Assembly (NCBI RefSeq): GCF_014268445.2
Contig: NZ_CP077089.1
Span: forward strand, 3,837,501 to 3,901,500
Length of the DNA stretch: 64,000 bases
Source: Pseudomonas tensinigenes
GTDB taxonomy: Bacteria > Pseudomonadota > Gammaproteobacteria > Pseudomonadales > Pseudomonadaceae
Reading direction: 5' to 3'
This document shows positions 18,181 through 50,819 of the stretch, one piece after another. Position 1 is the stretch's first letter, and each line of letters opens with the position of its first letter. The notes beneath the pieces were generated by a model. It saw only the letters and a list, made by a program, of their open reading frames with translations. It had not been told where the DNA came from and searched no databases. Position numbers and translations under genes: made by a program.

Positions 18181-18222
18181 GCGAGAGGACTTGCCCCCGA
18201 TGGATCGCGAAACGGCTCTCGC
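18181..18222. terminator. Inverted repeat after the membrane protein gene
   Basis: GCGAGAG at 18181-18187 pairs with CTCTCGC at 18216-18222. It looks like a degenerate REP and has no T-tract. Confidence 0.35.
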
Positions 18223-18286
18223 TCATCCACTCTCCGAAGACATCGCAAAACAGCTCTAACTGCCCTGTTGAAGCAATTCCTGGACT

Positions 18287-18629
18287 TTGTTTAAAGACAC
18301 CCCAAGTTACGTCATCCCAACCTACAACGCCTTGCGCCGTTGCCTACGACTACGCCAGAATCCGCCGGCTTGTGCGCCTCGGATGCGGGTTCTATTGTGG
18401 GTCGGTCACTGAACAGCAGTGATCGGGTTTGGTAGCCCGACTTTCCCAGGCGCATTGCGCACCTTTCGCAGAGATCGTTTTTTTGATCTCCGCTTTATGG
18501 TGGCCATGCGTAGGGCGTCCTCGGACGCGCCGGGCTCCTGGGCCGGTCTACCAACCTGTGCATGGCCGCCACCCCTCGTTTGGTAGCGAAGTGTGATGGC
18601 TCCTTAATCGTTTCCCAGGAGTTTCATCT
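18287..18629 (+). promoter_or_regulatory. Structured leader RNA of DUF6124 gene, copy 1
   Basis: Homologous to the leaders at 48250-48594 and 50110-50456. The 5' part is near-constant (CTACAACG..CGCCAGAATCCGCCGGC). Then come hairpin TCACTG/CAGTGA (18407-18423), loop L1 TTTGGTAG (18428-18435) closed by GGG/CCC, decoy E1 TTTCCCAGG (18442-18450), hairpin GAGATC/GATCTC (18471-18490), stem GGTGGCCATGC (18499) with GCATGG..CCACC (18560-18573), inner hairpin GCGTC-CTCG-GACGC (18515-18528), antisense E2 CTCCTGGG (18535-18542), M CTACCAA (18548-18554), L3 TTTGGTAG (18579-18586) and E3 CCCAGGAG (18614-18621), which holds the Shine-Dalgarno of ATG 18630. E2 is fully complementary to E3, and M to L1 and L3. 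A promoter-like TTGAAG-N17-TTAAAG lies at ~18268. Confidence 0.75.
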
Positions 18630-18992
18630 ATGTTCAAAATTACGCCGAATCCGCCAGAAATCGATCCGATTGCGGGCGACGAATCCCCAGACGCCAAGAA
18701 ATTCAACGAAGCCGTCGACCGCGCCCTCTCCCATTACCTCGGCCCTGCCCCGGAAATCATGCTCACCCCGTACCAAACCAACAAGATGTTCATCGCCAAC
18801 CCGAACACCAAGACTGAGGAATTGCTGGTGAATGCCAGTGAATCACTCGGCTCGGCATCGGTGATGCTTGGGGATGTGATCGGGCTGGTGCAGGGACCGG
18901 CACGCAAGACGCTGCAAGGCATTGCGCAGGTGGTAATGCTTGGGGAGTTGGCGGTGAATCGGGCGTTGGATAACGTAGTGCCGACGGAATAA
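18630..18992 (+). CDS. DUF6124 family protein, copy 1
   Basis: A 120-residue soluble protein of a Pseudomonas-restricted family. It has the Pro-rich start MFKITPNPPEIDP, a central NPNTKTEELLVNASESLGSASVML helix and a C-terminal helix ending IAQVVMLGELAVNRALDNVVPTE, which is nearly identical in the three window copies. No catalytic motif, signal or membrane segment. The N-terminal third and middle differ from copies 2 and 3. The start is fixed by the AGGAG in the leader. Function unknown. The shared complex leader suggests tightly controlled translation. Confidence 0.88.
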   Translation: MFKITPNPPEIDPIAGDESPDAKKFNEAVDRALSHYLGPAPEIMLTPYQTNKMFIANPNTKTEELLVNASESLGSASVMLGDVIGLVQGPARKTLQGIAQVVMLGELAVNRALDNVVPTE

Positions 18993-18998
18993 CGAAAA

Positions 18999-19034
18999 AA
19001 CCTCCATGACGGTTGGGATACCGTCATGGAGGTT
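18999..19034. terminator. Strong hairpin after DUF6124 copy 1
   Basis: A perfect 15-bp stem (18999-19013 with 19020-19034) around loop TGGGAT. The stem is preceded by an A-run, so on the minus strand it has a T-run and is a canonical intrinsic terminator. On the plus strand only TT follows. Confidence 0.7.
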
Positions 19035-19236
19035 GATCAGACATGCCGACCAAGACTGAAAGTAAATCCGTCCCCTTTTTGTCCCATCTTTTTACAACCA
19101 TGGCAGACATTCAAATAAGTGCTAGAGTTCTAAAGGAATTTTTACGCTGCGTTCCTGTGAGATTTAAGCCCTCAAACCAATATCAATATTGCGCATCGAA
19201 AATATAAATTAAAATAATCTCCAAAGAAAATTAGAC

Positions 19237-21096
19237 ATGTCGGAAGAACTGGGAAGTGAAGCACATAAAACCCGACCTGACTTAGATCCCGAAGCCCACT
19301 CCAAAGCAGAGAAAGTAAAACAAGATTTAAACTCCATCATACATCTAATTGAAAATAACGACCCTACTTTAAAAACCAAGAAAATCAAAAAGAAATTACA
19401 TCACCTTATAGAAACATGTATCGCTCACGGCATCCTAAAAGAAGACACGCCAAAAAAAGCCATTGAATTATTAGCGTTTGACATAGACGTAGATGCAGTA
19501 CTACAACACTTAACTCAAGACATGAGAGATGATTGGTTTTTTGATGTCCTCCAGCACAGAGACTTAATTGAAAACAAAAAACAGCTGCATGAAAACCTTC
19601 AGAGTCTAATACTAGATGGCAACGGAAAATATCAAGGCGCAATTAGAACCGTGTACGACATTCCCAAAAAAAGCATTGGGTTAAGATATTCTCTAGAAAC
19701 AGACTTTTACGATCGTTTTATTTACCAGGCCATCTGCTCATTTCTGATCCCATATTATGACCCATTATTGTCACATAGAGTGCTTGGACATAGATACAAC
19801 AAGAACAGATCATCCGAGCGCTACATATTTAAAAGCCGCATCGATCTTTGGACCACTTTCGAAGGAGTGACCAAAACCTCTCTTCAAAACAATCAGACCC
19901 TACTAGTAACAGACCTCATAAATTATTTCGAAAACATATCAATTGACTCAATAAGATCAGCCTTTGAAGAGAGCATAGACAAAATCGCAGCAACCGGGCC
20001 AAAAAAACTAATGATACGAAATGCAATAAATACACTCTGCGAACTCTTAAGTCGCTGGGGATTTAATGAAAAACATGGCCTGCCACAGAATCGAGATGCA
20101 TCATCATTTATTGCGAATGTTGTCCTGAACTCTGTTGACCAAACCATGGTTTCTCTTAAATACGATTACTACAGATACGTTGACGACATTAGAATCATAT
20201 GCAGCTCACCACAAGCAGCCAAAATTGCGCTGACTGAATTAATCAATCAACTCCGAAAAATCGGAATGAATATCAACTCTGCAAAAACCAATATCCTAAC
20301 CAGCAATAGCGCTACTGAAGAAATCAGTGAAAGCTTTCCCACTTCAGACGACCGCAGCCAAACAATTGACAGTATGTGGCGATCCAGAAGTAGAAGAGTT
20401 ATAGCTAGATCTGCAAAATATATTCACCAGTTACTCCGAGAATGCATTAATGAAAAACAGTCTCAATCAAGACAGTTTCGCTTCGCCATAAATCGGCTCA
20501 TTCAGCTTACAGAAGCCAACTTATTTGATATACACACAGACATAGCAGTAGAGCTTAAGCAATTATTAATTAAAACCTTAGAGGACCACGCAGCATCTAC
20601 AGACCAGTACTGCCGCATATTATGGGCATTAAAGCCGTCTTCAGATGAACTTGAAACAATATCCGCCTACCTTCAAGATCATGATCGCTCTATTTATTCT
20701 TGGCAGAATTTTCACTTATGGCTATTGCTTGCAAGAGCAAAATTCAAAAACAATGAAATTATAGGCTTCGCCAGAAAAAAACTTACCGAAAACTTACTTC
20801 ACTCCGAATGCTCCGCCATATTTATCTACTTACGCTGCACCAATGAGACGGATCATCTTCGTCCATTAATTCAAGAGTTCAGCAATGACTGGCCTTTCTA
20901 TCATCAGAGAAATTTCCTTCTCGCCATAAACGAGTTCGACAAAGAAGATGTCGCCGAGTTGCTACCAAAGATTGGCACAAAACTTATGTGGACTGGCTTA
21001 CGCGCGAAGCCTTACTTTGAGAATGGAATACCTTTACTTGACAGAGAGCCGGCCAGCGCTTTAAGCATTTACGAGGAAATAAGTCCTTATGAATAA
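19237..21096 (+). CDS. Reverse transcriptase (unclassified UG/Abi-like)
   Basis: A 619-residue RNA-directed DNA polymerase homologue. Motifs in order: motif A VTDLINYFENI (Asp226), motif B HGLPQNRDASSFIANVVL (~280-297), motif C YRYVDDIRI (YVDD 314-317), motif D LRKIGMNINSAKTN (~339-352). Residues ~1-130 are a Lys-rich helical extension. Residues ~370-619 form a long helical region without group II intron maturase or HNH domains, like the helical extensions of abortive-infection/defence RTs. Both catalytic Asp of YVDD are present, so it should be active. The DNA is strikingly A+T-rich against its neighbours, indicating horizontal origin. It overlaps the PolA gene by 8 bases. I cannot assign it to a named DRT type, and retron membership is not supported by a recognised msr-msd. 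Confidence 0.9.
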   Translation: MSEELGSEAHKTRPDLDPEAHSKAEKVKQDLNSIIHLIENNDPTLKTKKIKKKLHHLIETCIAHGILKEDTPKKAIELLAFDIDVDAVLQHLTQDMRDDWFFDVLQHRDLIENKKQLHENLQSLILDGNGKYQGAIRTVYDIPKKSIGLRYSLETDFYDRFIYQAICSFLIPYYDPLLSHRVLGHRYNKNRSSERYIFKSRIDLWTTFEGVTKTSLQNNQTLLVTDLINYFENISIDSIRSAFEESIDKIAATGPKKLMIRNAINTLCELLSRWGFNEKHGLPQNRDASSFIANVVLNSVDQTMVSLKYDYYRYVDDIRIICSSPQAAKIALTELINQLRKIGMNINSAKTNILTSNSATEEISESFPTSDDRSQTIDSMWRSRSRRVIARSAKYIHQLLRECINEKQSQSRQFRFAINRLIQLTEANLFDIHTDIAVELKQLLIKTLEDHAASTDQYCRILWALKPSSDELETISAYLQDHDRSIYSWQNFHLWLLLARAKFKNNEIIGFARKKLTENLLHSECSAIFIYLRCTNETDHLRPLIQEFSNDWPFYHQRNFLLAINEFDKEDVAELLPKIGTKLMWTGLRAKPYFENGIPLLDREPASALSIYEEISPYE

Positions 21097-22633
21097 CAAT
21101 AAAAAAGCACTACTTTTCATTCACGACTACACTGAACAGGGCAATGATTTATTTTATTTATGGGACGGAGCTCAGATTGGAGAGGTGACAGCCGAAAAAC
21201 TTGTCACGGATGATGCAGAGATCATTTGTCATGACTATTGGTTAATAGCACCAGCGATATATAGAACAACCCAGCAACTACCAAAAATCATTACCGACGT
21301 TGAAGAACTCCGAATCTCGACATCTGGCAAAAAGACCGATAGAGAACTAAAAGAAAAAACTGACATTGCACAGTCGTTAAAGGCGCGGGTTGATGCGGAC
21401 ACGATCAAAAAATATCTTGCCATTTTCCACCGAAAATCTGCGGTAGATGACAGCATTCTCACTACAATAGGCCAAGCTTTGCTAGAACTATCAGAGGAGA
21501 TAGAAATATTAGCAAAGAAACTTGACGAATGGGATCGCTTCATCAAGATAGAACGACCAATAACAGAGCAATTAATACAATCAGCAGCTAAAGGCATTGC
21601 AATAAACGAAGAAAAACTTCGCTTACACAAGAAAAATATTGAATTTGATTATTACATGACACTGAAGTCCTTCTCATCAAAATACAATGTGCCGTTAGAA
21701 ATACCGTCAGACGCTGAAATCATTAACTATCTTGAACCAAAAGGGTATGATTTTTCCGGAGTAAACGTTGACTACGTTTTAAAATTCGTACCGATGCAGG
21801 ACGACTTCGCCATAGATCTTTTAAAGCTCATGAAAATTGCAAAATCGAGAAAGGTACTCAACCTGATCCCTTTAAGTCAAAGAAGGATATATCCTATAAC
21901 AGATGTTTTCGGCTCAGTCACCTCTCGCATATACTTCAAAGACCCTTCATTACAAAATCTAGCTAAACAGCACAGAAATATACTAGCGCCGGATAAAGGA
22001 AAATTATTTTCCTACGTCGACTTTGATCAGTATGAAGCTGGGATAATGGGCATATTATCTGGTGACAGCGAAATCCTGAGACTTTATGCCAGCGGCGACC
22101 TTTACGAAACCGTTGCAGAGGAAGTTTTTGGTAATAAAACCAATCGGAAGGAGGCGAAAAGGCTATTTCTCTCATACGCTTACGGAATGCGAAAACAAAG
22201 CCTTTATGATGCAGCATCAAACTACGGTGCAAATAGACAGGCAGCAAAAGATTTTTTTAACAAATTCTCTGTTTTCGAGAAATGGAAAGTCGCTATACAT
22301 TCGGAATTTCAACAACAAGGCTATGTCAAAACCTCCTTAGGAAACCATATGCAACGTGAAATAATCGGACCTTTATCTGAACAAGAAAAGAGATCTTCCG
22401 TGAGTCAAATAGTACAAGGCACCGCATCTCTCATATTCAAAAAAACACTTTTAAACCTGAGGAGCGAAACCAACGTTCAAATCAAAGTACCAATGCATGA
22501 CGCCGTACTTTTCCAACATGATGAAAAATTCAACGCTGAGACGGTCGCGCAAATATTCTCCTCTACCATGACCGAGCATTTCGAGGGAAAAATTCAAGGA
22601 AAAGCATCAATTAGTGAGTTTTTTGAGAATTAA
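21089..22633 (+). CDS. Family A DNA polymerase (PolA-like), paired with the RT
   Basis: A 514-residue protein with the polymerase I palm and fingers but no 5' nuclease domain. VFGSVTSRIYFKDPSLQNLAKQHR (~273-296) matches the Pol I template-primer region. Motif A is YVDFDQYEAGIM (Asp311, Glu316; canonical DYSQIELR). Motif B is RKEAKRLFLSYAYGM (Arg353, Lys357, Tyr365). QIVQGTASLIFKK is the O-helix follow-on, and motif C is VPMHDAVLF (His470-Asp471; the usual Glu is Ala). The first ~150 residues may be a degenerate proofreading domain, with only one DxE-like site (DVE at 70-72). The ATG lies inside the RT gene's last codons, so translation is coupled. Same low-G+C composition. Likely a partner in second-strand or processive synthesis for the RT. 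Confidence 0.9.
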   Translation: MNNNKKALLFIHDYTEQGNDLFYLWDGAQIGEVTAEKLVTDDAEIICHDYWLIAPAIYRTTQQLPKIITDVEELRISTSGKKTDRELKEKTDIAQSLKARVDADTIKKYLAIFHRKSAVDDSILTTIGQALLELSEEIEILAKKLDEWDRFIKIERPITEQLIQSAAKGIAINEEKLRLHKKNIEFDYYMTLKSFSSKYNVPLEIPSDAEIINYLEPKGYDFSGVNVDYVLKFVPMQDDFAIDLLKLMKIAKSRKVLNLIPLSQRRIYPITDVFGSVTSRIYFKDPSLQNLAKQHRNILAPDKGKLFSYVDFDQYEAGIMGILSGDSEILRLYASGDLYETVAEEVFGNKTNRKEAKRLFLSYAYGMRKQSLYDAASNYGANRQAAKDFFNKFSVFEKWKVAIHSEFQQQGYVKTSLGNHMQREIIGPLSEQEKRSSVSQIVQGTASLIFKKTLLNLRSETNVQIKVPMHDAVLFQHDEKFNAETVAQIFSSTMTEHFEGKIQGKASISEFFEN

Positions 22634-48249: not shown

Positions 48250-48594
48250 GTTGTTTAAAAGACACGTCGCGTTACCTGCTTAAGGCTACAACGTCTTGCG
48301 CCGTTGCCTACGACTACGCCAGAATCCGCCGGCTTGTGCGTCTGGGGCGCGGGTTTTATCGTTTCCGGGTCACTGAAAAACAGTGATGGGGTTTGGTAGC
48401 CCGCTTCCATATGACGCATAACGTCACCGTGCGCAGATGCTTTTTCAGCATTTGTCTTATGGTGGCCATGCGCAGGGCGTCCTCGGGCGCGCCGGATTTT
48501 CCATATGGGCCGGTCTACCAACCTTCGTATGGCCACCACCTTTCGTTTGGTAGCGAAGGTGATGGTTCCTTAAGTCCCATATGGAGCTTCATCT
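48250..48594 (+). promoter_or_regulatory. Structured leader RNA of DUF6124 gene, copy 2
   Basis: Same architecture as 18287-18629. Hairpin TCACTG/CAGTGA (48370-48386). L1 TTTGGTAG (48392-48399) in a GGG/CCC hairpin. E1 TTCCATATG (48405-48413). Hairpin AGATGC/GCATTT (48435-48453). Stem GGTGGCCATGCG (48461) with CGTATGG..CCACC (48526-48540). Inner hairpin GCGTC-CTCG-GGCGC (48477-48490). E2 CCATATGGG (48501-48509). M CTACCAA (48515-48521). L3 TTTGGTAG (48546-48553). E3 CCCATATGG (48576-48584), running into the GGAG ribosome site of ATG 48595. E2 and E3 are perfectly complementary over 9 bases although they differ completely from copy 1. Confidence 0.75.
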
Positions 48595-48957
48595 ATGTTC
48601 AAACCAACGCCGAATCCACCAGAAACCGATCCAGTCTCACCCTACAAATTCCCAGACTCCCGAACACTCAACGACGCAGCCGAGCGCGCCCTCGATTACT
48701 ACCTCACGCCAACCCAACGCATCATGGGCAGCGACCAGAAACACGCGCCCATGTTTCTGGCCAACGCCGACTACGACAGCGAATCCCTGCTCGTCAACGC
48801 CAGCGAGTCCCTCAGCTCAGCCACCGAAATGCTCTGCAACTTCGCCGCCCTCCTGGACCCAGGTCACCGCAAGACTGCGCTGGGGATTGCGCAAGTGGTG
48901 ATGCTGGGGGAGTTGGCGGTGAATCGAGCGCTGGATAATGTTGTGCCGGTGGATTGA
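48595..48957 (+). CDS. DUF6124 family protein, copy 2
   Basis: A 120-residue protein, nearly identical to copy 3 from residue ~29 onward (AERALDYYLTPTQRIMGSDQ..), but with a different stretch at residues ~14-28. It shares the C-terminal IAQVVMLGELAVNRALDNVVPVD with all copies. The leader contains its ribosome site GGAG. A hairpin CCCTTTGTG/CACAAAGGG (48966-49002) follows and probably terminates. Function unknown. Confidence 0.88.
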   Translation: MFKPTPNPPETDPVSPYKFPDSRTLNDAAERALDYYLTPTQRIMGSDQKHAPMFLANADYDSESLLVNASESLSSATEMLCNFAALLDPGHRKTALGIAQVVMLGELAVNRALDNVVPVD

Positions 48958-50109: not shown

Positions 50110-50456
50110 TTGTGGCTGTTTAAAAGACACGTCGCGTTACCTGCTTAAGGCTACAACGTCTTGCGCCATTGCCTACGACTACGCCAGAATCCGCCGGCTT
50201 GTGCGCCTCAAGGGCCACCGGTAACTTGGTTCGCATCACTGATTCCCAGTGATCGGGTTTAGTAGCCCGTGGTAAATGAAAGTGCACAAGCGTCCATCAA
50301 AAGGTATTCACGTACCTGCACTCGATGGCGGCTGTGCGTAGGGCGCCCTCGGGCGCGCCGGCTTTCTTCTTTTCCCCGGTCTACTAACCTGCGTACAGCT
50401 GCCACCCCCTGTTTAGTAGCTCGGAGCGGCGGCCACACCACAGGAAAAAGAAGAAC
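50110..50456 (+). promoter_or_regulatory. Structured leader RNA of DUF6124 gene, copy 3
   Basis: Same architecture as the other two with changed pairing sequences. Hairpin TCACTG/CAGTGA (~50236-50252). L1 TTTAGTAG (50258-50265). Partial decoy E1 GGTAAATGAAAG (50271-50282). Hairpin AGGTA/TACCT (50302-50317). Stem GGCGGCTGTGCG (50327) with CGTACAG..CCACC (50392-50406), having one C-A mismatch. Inner hairpin GCGCC-CTCG-GGCGC (50343-50356). E2 CTTTCTTCTTTTCC (50362-50375). M CTACTAA (50381-50387). L3 TTTAGTAG (50412-50419). E3 GGAAAAAGAAG (50443-50453), which is the ribosome site of ATG 50457. M, L1 and L3 carry the matched C-to-T and G-to-A changes. Confidence 0.75.
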
Positions 50457-50819
50457 ATGTTCAAGATCACGCCGAACCCGCCGGAAACAGATCCGGCCTC
50501 CCCGTATGAATCCCCCAACTCCAAGAAATTCCACAAAGCCGCCGAACGCGCCCTCGATTACTACCTCACGCCAACCCAACGCATCATGGGCAGCGACCAG
50601 AAACACGCGCCCATGTTTCTGACCAACGCCGACTACGACAGCGAATCCCTACTCGTCAACGCCAGCGAGTCCCTCAGCTCAGCTACCGAAATGCTCTGCA
50701 ACTTCGCCGCCCTCCTGGACCCAGGCCACCGCAAAACTGCGCTGGGGATTGCGCAAGTGGTGATGCTGGGGGAGTTGGCGGTGAATCGAGCGCTGGATAA
50801 TGTTGTGCCGGTGGATTGA
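50457..50819 (+). CDS. DUF6124 family protein, copy 3
   Basis: A 120-residue protein, MFKITPNPPETDPASPYESP.., nearly identical to copy 2 after residue ~29 and with an N-terminus closer to copy 1 (FKIT, SKKFHKAAERAL). Ribosome site AGGAAAAAGAAG is part of the leader switch. A 12-bp hairpin (50825-50867) follows. Function unknown. The 286 bases to the next gene contain TCTGCTTTCGGCCAGAAGC and no other gene. Confidence 0.88.
   Translation: MFKITPNPPETDPASPYESPNSKKFHKAAERALDYYLTPTQRIMGSDQKHAPMFLTNADYDSESLLVNASESLSSATEMLCNFAALLDPGHRKTALGIAQVVMLGELAVNRALDNVVPVD

Follow-up and report, generated by a model that had tools for sequence, protein, structure and literature searches.

The leader of a DUF6124 gene in Pseudomonas tensinigenes is an instance of the C4 antisense RNA known from phages P1 and P7 (Rfam RF01695), with an a1b1 element (RF03163) upstream of it. 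What is new, within the searches made, is the setting: a genus-wide set of C4/DUF6124 cassettes with mostly private pairing codes and discrete alternative leaders. The window analysed here is the whole stretch of 64,000 nucleotides (contig NZ_CP077089.1, positions 3,837,501 to 3,901,500), and all coordinates without another label refer to it. It holds three copies of the cassette, and the leader of copy 1 is composed as follows, with the block names of the original prediction in brackets.

18370..18398, + strand: promoter-like element of copy 1 (TTGTGC at 18370-18375, 17-nt spacer, TATTGT at 18393-18398)
18392..18443, + strand: c4-a1b1 (RF03163, 49.6 bits with Rfam), the upstream target site of C4
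18428..18435, + strand: a1 (L1), TTTGGTAG, within a hairpin loop; exact-register covariation with a' and a2
18442..18450, + strand: b1 (E1), TTTCCCAGG, a weaker copy of the target on the Shine-Dalgarno side
18493..18576, + strand: C4 antisense RNA domain (RF01695, 77.3 bits with Rfam), stems P1, P2 and P3
18535..18542, + strand: b' (E2), CTCCTGGG, the P3 loop
18548..18554, + strand: a' (M), CTACCAA, between P3 and the 3' strand of P1
18579..18586, + strand: a2 (L3), TTTGGTAG, a small hairpin loop
18614..18621, + strand: b2 (E3), CCCAGGAG, containing the Shine-Dalgarno of the ATG at 18630
18630..18992, + strand: DUF6124 gene copy 1, 120 aa (PF19619, 59.7 bits)

All three window copies pass the RF01695 gathering cut-off of 45 (77.3, 74.7, and 77.9 bits), and copy 1 also lies above that of RF03163 (46.7), with copies 2 and 3 below it. 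The original prediction knew of no description of this element, a statement that no longer holds, as the layout is that of C4/a1b1 of P1 and P7; a new RNA family was rejected since the Rfam C4 model matches. The pairing is likewise that of C4, a' and b' being complementary to a2 and b2 of the downstream gene and b2 lying at the ribosome site. The target of C4 is typically a phage antirepressor, as in P1 and P7, although the Rfam model does not demand one; behind the window copies stand DUF6124 genes.

Direct reading of the letters placed all of the predicted blocks where they had been described and found them to pair as claimed. A single antisense block is complementary to one upstream and one downstream sense copy, the order of elements is colinear, the downstream copy overlies the ribosome site, and this matching is kept across the genus. 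E2 is complementary to all 8 bases of E3 but to 6 (CCCAGG) of E1, and M is complementary to 7 bases of L1 and to 7 of L3. Within the window, TTTGGTAGC occurs 5 times against 0.2 expected, 4 of these occurrences being in copies 1 and 2, and TTTCCCAGG occurs twice against 0.35 expected, a count reached by 3 of 100 shuffles. A chance palindrome was ruled out by the excess of TTTGGTAGC, by cognate pairing in relatives, and by covariation. The antisense segments remain exposed inside a domain closed by a 17-bp stem; the minimum-energy fold of the leader leaves this domain closed, both a contacts covary, and the domain folds with a mean z of -4.7 relative to mononucleotide shuffles. The 42 nt directly 5' of C4 (18451-18492) form a hairpin of variable sequence that is also found in other leaders (mean z of -1.64, below -1 in 83 of 128 leaders, with a gene-stretch control at 0.04).

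The other two window copies share this organization.

48334..48362, + strand: promoter-like element of copy 2
48356..48407, + strand: c4-a1b1-like site of copy 2 (32.2 bits, below the gathering cut-off of 46.7)
48455..48543, + strand: C4 antisense RNA of copy 2, b' TTTTCCATATGGG (74.7 bits)
48576..48586, + strand: b2 of copy 2, CCCATATGGAG, an 11-base run with its own b' (cassette 18)
48595..48957, + strand: DUF6124 gene copy 2
50222..50273, + strand: c4-a1b1-like site of copy 3 (26.0 bits, below the gathering cut-off of 46.7)
50321..50409, + strand: C4 antisense RNA of copy 3, a' CTACTAA, b' TTTCTTCTTTTCCCC (77.9 bits)
50457..50819, + strand: DUF6124 gene copy 3

Copies 2 and 3 are near-identical as far as 48340 and again from 48685; the part in between, which spans the promoter, the C4, and the first codons, differs. 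Next to copy 1, at 19237-22633, lies a candidate defence-type RT system, made up of a reverse transcriptase (PADLOC RT_UG9_small, E 1.9e-248) with its DNA polymerase A-type partner (RTasPolA, E 1.7e-186).

Across the whole genome we found 48 C4 matches, 47 of them above the cut-off (the exception being cassette 48, at 40.3 bits), and 40 DUF6124 matches, counting fragments. A same-strand C4 lies at most 800 bp upstream of 38 of these 40 genes, one of which is the second gene of a tandem, and 36 of the 48 C4s are involved, for a chance expectation of about 0.3% per gene. The two remaining DUF6124 genes (G000 4437757 and 1109940) have no C4 match even at E up to 1; one of these two (L043, G000 4436257-4439442) stands just 5' of a PrrF sRNA match of 158.4 bits. 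Behind the other 12 C4s are Bro-N (antirepressor-type) genes (cassettes 1, 26, and 48, the first also matching PHROG anti-repressors), DUF3077 genes (cassettes 11, 19, and 4, the last after a 24-aa leader ORF), and proteins without a Pfam name (cassettes 7, 14, 41, 44, and 47), along with an apparent DUF6124 remnant, judged by eye (cassette 34). The genes of cassettes 21 and 30 also appear broken. The start codon lies 45-59 nt 3' of the C4 in 47 of the 48 cassettes, the start of cassette 33 having been misassigned by the script. In cassettes 4 (L004) and 7 (L007), a leader ORF of 24 and 28 aa, respectively, sits between the C4 and a longer gene, an arrangement that recalls icd before ant in P1.

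Both components are concentrated in Pseudomonas. Of 119 genomes sampled from the genus, 110 carry C4, which is sporadic elsewhere; at most 33 C4s were scored per genome in this survey, and its per-genome counts are therefore lower bounds. DUF6124 was present in 95 of the same 119 genomes; in the order sample, 2 genomes out of 194 carry it, and both belong to this genus. In the class sample, 12 of 229 genomes, including the window's own, carry C4, the others with 1-4 copies each. Among 537 named loci, the first 80 listed are all from Pseudomonas. In other genomes of the genus (L147, L148, L159, L182, and L196, among others), C4 often precedes a conserved small protein of 52-54 aa.

The cassette is also present in viral sequence collections. 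DUF6124 is encoded at 52 IMG/VR loci, and a C4 lies upstream in 39 of the 40 scanned (the miss being L126), at some loci standing before a preceding DUF6124 gene. Cassette matches numbered none among plasmids and one among phage records (EU982300). Three IMG/VR contigs hold extra C4s some hundred bases before another C4 (L127 2515-2603, L129 2514-2602, and L095 1869-1958); these had no matching a2/b2 of their own, with runs of at most 4 bases, and may be orphans or what is left of an earlier leader. Two phage-like contigs have the C4/DUF6124 cassette next to a RelA/SpoT-domain gene (L128 2866-4867) or a Dsr1-like gene (L097 66-3360), and the proximity of both cassettes to a tail-assembly-like gene, judged by eye, looks like a cargo spot.

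Within the window's own genome, each C4 matches its own leader. For all four contacts, the mean cognate score lay above the highest value reached in 10,000 permutations (17.4 vs. 12.5 for a'-a2, 19.5 vs. 14.3 for b'-b2, 17.5 vs. 13.8 for a'-a1, and 17.3 vs. 15.3 for b'-b1). When a and b scores were summed, the own target was strictly best for 39 of 48 C4s downstream and for 24 of 48 upstream, and b1 (E1) is the least-kept copy by these own-genome scores. By duplex energy, the own partner was strictly best in 21 (b'-b2), 16 (b'-b1), and 13 (a'-a2) of the 48. At fixed register there are 26 different a' seven-mers, a few of which are shifted readings of another. The best b' run, which defines b2, overlaps the Shine-Dalgarno window in 44 of 48 copies, a count that scores cassette 33 as a miss although its start was wrongly picked and its DUF6124 frame is intact.

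The same pattern holds elsewhere in the genus. A separate set of 80 loci was taken from the best-scoring C4s of 68 other genomes, one from each plus 12 more, rather than by random draw; an exact a2 and an exact a1 each occur in 76 of them, and mean cognate pairing exceeded each of 5,000 permutations for all four contacts. The own target was strictly best at 34 of the 80 downstream and at 26 upstream; orthologues in this set often share a code across genomes.

Covariation links the same blocks. The 128 leaders include 119 distinct ones (effective number 79.5), for which a corrected G was computed over 32,259 column pairs, in a home-made test with sequence weighting and a null that is not tree-based. 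The top two column pairs were a1-a2 (139.6) and a1-a' (133.0). Of the 15 strongest, 12 link a1, a', and a2, all in exactly the register predicted, and 3 belong to the P2 helix. P2 pairs thus fall within the first 15 and P1 pairs within the first 25, and P3 pairs were not separately seen among the top covarying column pairs of these 119 leaders; column pairs without structural reason score up to 39 (18515-18548). Two b1-b' column pairs (18445-18540 and 18443-18541) rank within the first 60, in a register shifted from that of copy 1 because b' loops of unequal length align poorly. The covariation that the original prediction had proposed as its check is therefore very strong for L1/M/L3, and weaker and in a shifted register for E1/E2.

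A further concern raised with that prediction was that transcription might start downstream of L1/E1, leaving the upstream copy outside the RNA. Exact matching located a1 in 115 of the 128 leaders, and all 115 have a TAnnnT box 34-40 nt 5' of it, where 9.5 would be expected; 105 of them also have a TTG at -35 spacing. Since this promoter-like box lies at constant distance upstream of a1, E1 is probably in the RNA, and an L1/E1 outside the transcript seems unlikely, although a strict sigma-70 scan of 18200-19080 called no promoter. The ends of the C4 domain are also conserved, with GG at positions 7-8 of the match in 119 of 119 leaders and RCC at the 3' end in 116 of 119. RCC is a mark of RNase P substrates, and these ends are what would be expected of such substrates.

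Taken together, these observations make it highly probable that the leader is a C4-type antisense cassette, in which a trans-acting C4 pairs over the Shine-Dalgarno in b2 and keeps the ribosome off. Transcription would begin at the promoter 5' of a1 and yield an RNA ordered a1b1 decoy, C4 domain, a2b2 target, and DUF6124 gene, from which RNase P and a second cut would free a C4 of about 80 nt, as suggested by P1/P7 and by the conserved end marks. Covariation and cognate matching both support the predicted contacts, in which the a2 hairpin loop would be bound by the seven a' bases, and b', the loop of P3, would cover the Shine-Dalgarno in b2; by analogy with P1, this pairing would keep the ribosome off DUF6124. 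The least certain step concerns a1b1, a second site with a weaker b side, which may well modulate C4 within the precursor, either damping C4 production or holding C4 in that precursor. A released C4 would act in trans, and paralogues would therefore need separate codes, which most cassettes have. The Bro-N genes behind three cassettes fit the expectation from P1.

A control closer to that of phage P4 could be built from the same parts: C4 would bind a1b1 or a2b2 of the growing RNA and cause an early, Rho-dependent stop, the translation block being secondary. The P4 CI RNA has an equal sense-antisense-sense order and acts by premature termination (PMC4825925), and the 42 nt 5' of C4 fold better than shuffles. 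Elongation control has no need for a b2 placed over the Shine-Dalgarno, which is nevertheless its position in 44 of 48 cassettes, and the + strand of 18200-19080 holds a single, weak terminator-like site, so we regard this reading as unlikely.

Orthologous loci often differ in their leaders. In a close relative (G019), whose upstream gene is 96% identical to that of the window genome, 36 cassettes could be flank-matched (of 48 and 42), with genes about 92% alike; two of the 36 pairs have broken genes, and some were matched by a single flank or by flanks below 85% and may be paralogues (e.g., cassettes 6 and 45). Leaders were nearly identical in 12 of these pairs and different in 24, and C4 identity was distributed accordingly, with 12 pairs at 0.98-1.00, 3 at 0.91-0.94, and 21 at 0.80-0.88. 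A stricter subset, in which 400 bp or more of the upstream flank had to match and genes had to be 0.6 or more identical, retained 11 pairs with kept and 17 with different leaders. Kept leaders had identities of 1.00 in b', 0.98 in a2b2, and 0.92-0.95 in codons, and different leaders had identities of 0.60 in b', 0.56 in b1, 0.70 in a2b2, 0.86 in stems, and 0.90-0.92 in codons. Across the 24 different pairs, C4s scored their own target above that of the orthologue in 45 of 48 comparisons, a' was unchanged in 13 of the 24, and at fixed register an exact a2 and an exact a1 were found in 38 and 37 of the 48 leaders.

At the window's own locus, nine orthologues (the window, G019, and seven named loci) fall into two discrete leader types.

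Leader type A: the window, L291, L293
Leader type B: G019, L292, L294-L297

Leaders of one type are 0.979-0.996 identical and leaders of different types 0.774-0.813, while the ranges of gene identity overlap (0.897-0.975 for pairs of one type, 0.903-0.958 across types). The two types do not follow the gene tree, which requires at least 2 type changes on well-supported branches, although most forks of this tree of nine rows are weak; none of 200 bootstrap trees could be explained by only one change. More broadly, 69 of the 80 listed named loci yield 101 pairs whose genes are 0.88 or more identical, pairs that are non-independent and may include paralogues; position-based leader identity was below 0.90 in 69 of these, 0.90-0.95 in 2, and higher in 30. 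Four address types occur at locus 8, where gene and downstream flank stay the same (o8 with L109-L111; L106; L114; G019). The leader thus behaves as a discrete module, near-constant within a type, with alternative types at orthologous loci whose gene and flanks are kept. We infer, from one genome per species, that leaders would move by recombination and be kept by balancing selection.

As a tentative proposal, more speculative than the mechanism itself, the leaders could be genus-wide RNA specificity alleles with a two-part code, moved as modules and balanced at loci, such that a resident C4 would silence a newcomer of the same code and permit others, a self/non-self system derived from a phage immunity element. 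A related and similarly improbable possibility is that chromosomal C4s are mainly RNA immunity against phages or elements of the same address, DUF6124 being a passenger or an effector released upon entry into a naive cell. Discrete address alleles that alternate at orthologous loci would suit such a role, as would the DUF6124/C4 cassettes in IMG/VR contigs, and the idea has been raised for Acinetobacter C4s (PMC5320573). Viral-contig addresses were, however, identical to bacterial ones in only 4 of 33 cases (33 of 42 C4s having been compared), representing two types, and some contigs of the same type share the downstream flank of a chromosomal locus (L109-L111) and may therefore be host DNA beside a prophage.

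The AlphaFold model of the DUF6124 protein is only moderate (mean pLDDT 72, pTM 0.48), with predicted helices at 20-37, 40-45, 62-84, and 90-114 and a confident C-terminal helical pair; a PDB sequence search yielded nothing better than E 0.23, and no named family matched it in PHROGs, NCBIfam, or PADLOC. A relationship between DUF3077 and DUF6124 is possible, since the protein of cassette 19 scores above the cut-off for DUF3077 and below that for DUF6124. Many copies of a small protein, each with its own antisense RNA, could also suggest a set resembling type-I toxin-antitoxin systems, with a harmful DUF6124 silenced by C4. A predicted helical protein of 120 aa is no small hydrophobic peptide, toxin families were unmatched in the libraries searched (including PHROGs, NCBIfam, and PADLOC), and a few broken genes are retained behind C4s (cassettes 21, 30, and 34), all of which makes this quite improbable.

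Paralogues within the genome bear on whether the leader acts on itself or in trans. Fifteen pairs have genes that are 0.85 or more identical, 10 of them drawn from one group of five cassettes; in 14 of the 15, b' loops are 0.40-0.73 alike and thus as unlike as those of distant pairs (mean 0.53). The gene of cassette 33 was misread in this comparison. Examples include cassettes 6/45 (gene 0.997, b' 0.56), 5/15 (gene 0.969, b' 0.40), and 10/18 (window copies 3 and 2; gene 0.911, b' 0.47). The a' is the same in 4 of the 15 pairs, and cassettes 6 and 45, which share theirs, are poorly insulated (30 and 30 across vs. 35 and 32 for own targets). The exception is the pair 23/24, located 1.46 Mb apart, with identical leaders and different far-upstream sequence. 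The patterns of copies 2/3 and of 23/24 therefore indicate that leaders and genes have been shuffled against each other. Near-identical paralogues with unlike b' would be expected under trans action and are unexplained if a leader reads only itself, and this divergence of codes argues for a C4 acting in trans.

The original prediction had read the leader as a bistable switch in cis, with E2:E3 hiding the ribosome site and E1:E2 freeing it in an unprocessed RNA; its colinear sense/antisense/sense anatomy stands, but a purely cis toggle is less likely than C4-type control, C4 being known as a processed, trans-acting antisense RNA. Such a toggle could draw on the covariation of both L copies with M and on the constant-distance promoter-like box that probably places E1 in the RNA, yet it is very unlikely given that the antisense sits in loops of a very stable closed domain rather than in refolding strands, that RNase P-type marks are conserved, that differing codes in near-identical paralogues would have no reason, that the E1 copy is the least kept, and that the known relative is trans-acting (PMC8546580).

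A classical antisense RNA of phages P1 and P7 is thus found here in dozens of chromosomal copies within a single genus. Its matched codes, which vary at three sites together and have alternatives at one locus, amount to a natural antisense-target library, providing very clean data on RNA-RNA coevolution and a concrete route to asking how an RNA of phage immunity came to serve hosts in many copies. DUF6124 and DUF3077 also gain a regulatory context. In the literature searched (most subscription papers lying outside it), we found no description of the C4/DUF6124 set, no mention of DUF6124, and no C4 antisense RNA in Pseudomonas fluorescens; DUF3077 appeared there in a furfural-tolerance study.

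Among known systems, the closest is C4 of P1 and P7, which is trimmed to about 77 nt by RNase P, with b' blocking ribosome sites and a' conferring specificity (PMC5320573), and which has been termed trans-acting in P1 (PMC8546580). The c4 and c4-a1b1 motifs have been listed from Proteobacteria and their phages (PMC2864571), c4 has been summarized (PMC12197685), and C4 has been listed for Xylella (PMC12189769) and predicted earlier in Pseudomonadales (PMC5320573). The leaders described here share with P1/P7 the P1/P2/P3 fold, a' and b', a1b1 upstream and a2b2 downstream over the ribosome site, the same strand and order, and RNase P-type ends. Unlike P1/P7, where icd and ant follow, they precede DUF6124 in the window copies and DUF3077 or unnamed small proteins in others, and they are chromosomal, with 48 matches in this one genome and addresses that are mostly private and changing. 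The hairpins of a1b1 are also resembled by IsrK of the Salmonella prophage Gifsy-1 (RF01394), to which 18405-18483 is a weak match (28.3 bits against a cut-off of 50) that does not reach membership. The P4 CI RNA, situated between seqA and seqC, likewise has its antisense between two sense copies and is processed from the same transcript; it is known to work by transcription termination, and the likeness is one of layout alone (PMC4825925). The 21 C4-like sRNAs of A. baumannii Group 1 are similarly chromosomal, of high copy number, and variable in their specificity loop, with RNA-seq signs of RNase P-like processing where we see sequence end marks; their targets are left open in the accessible part of that report (PMC5320573), whereas in Pseudomonas the cognate target lies just 3' of the C4 and a' as well as b' differ from code to code.
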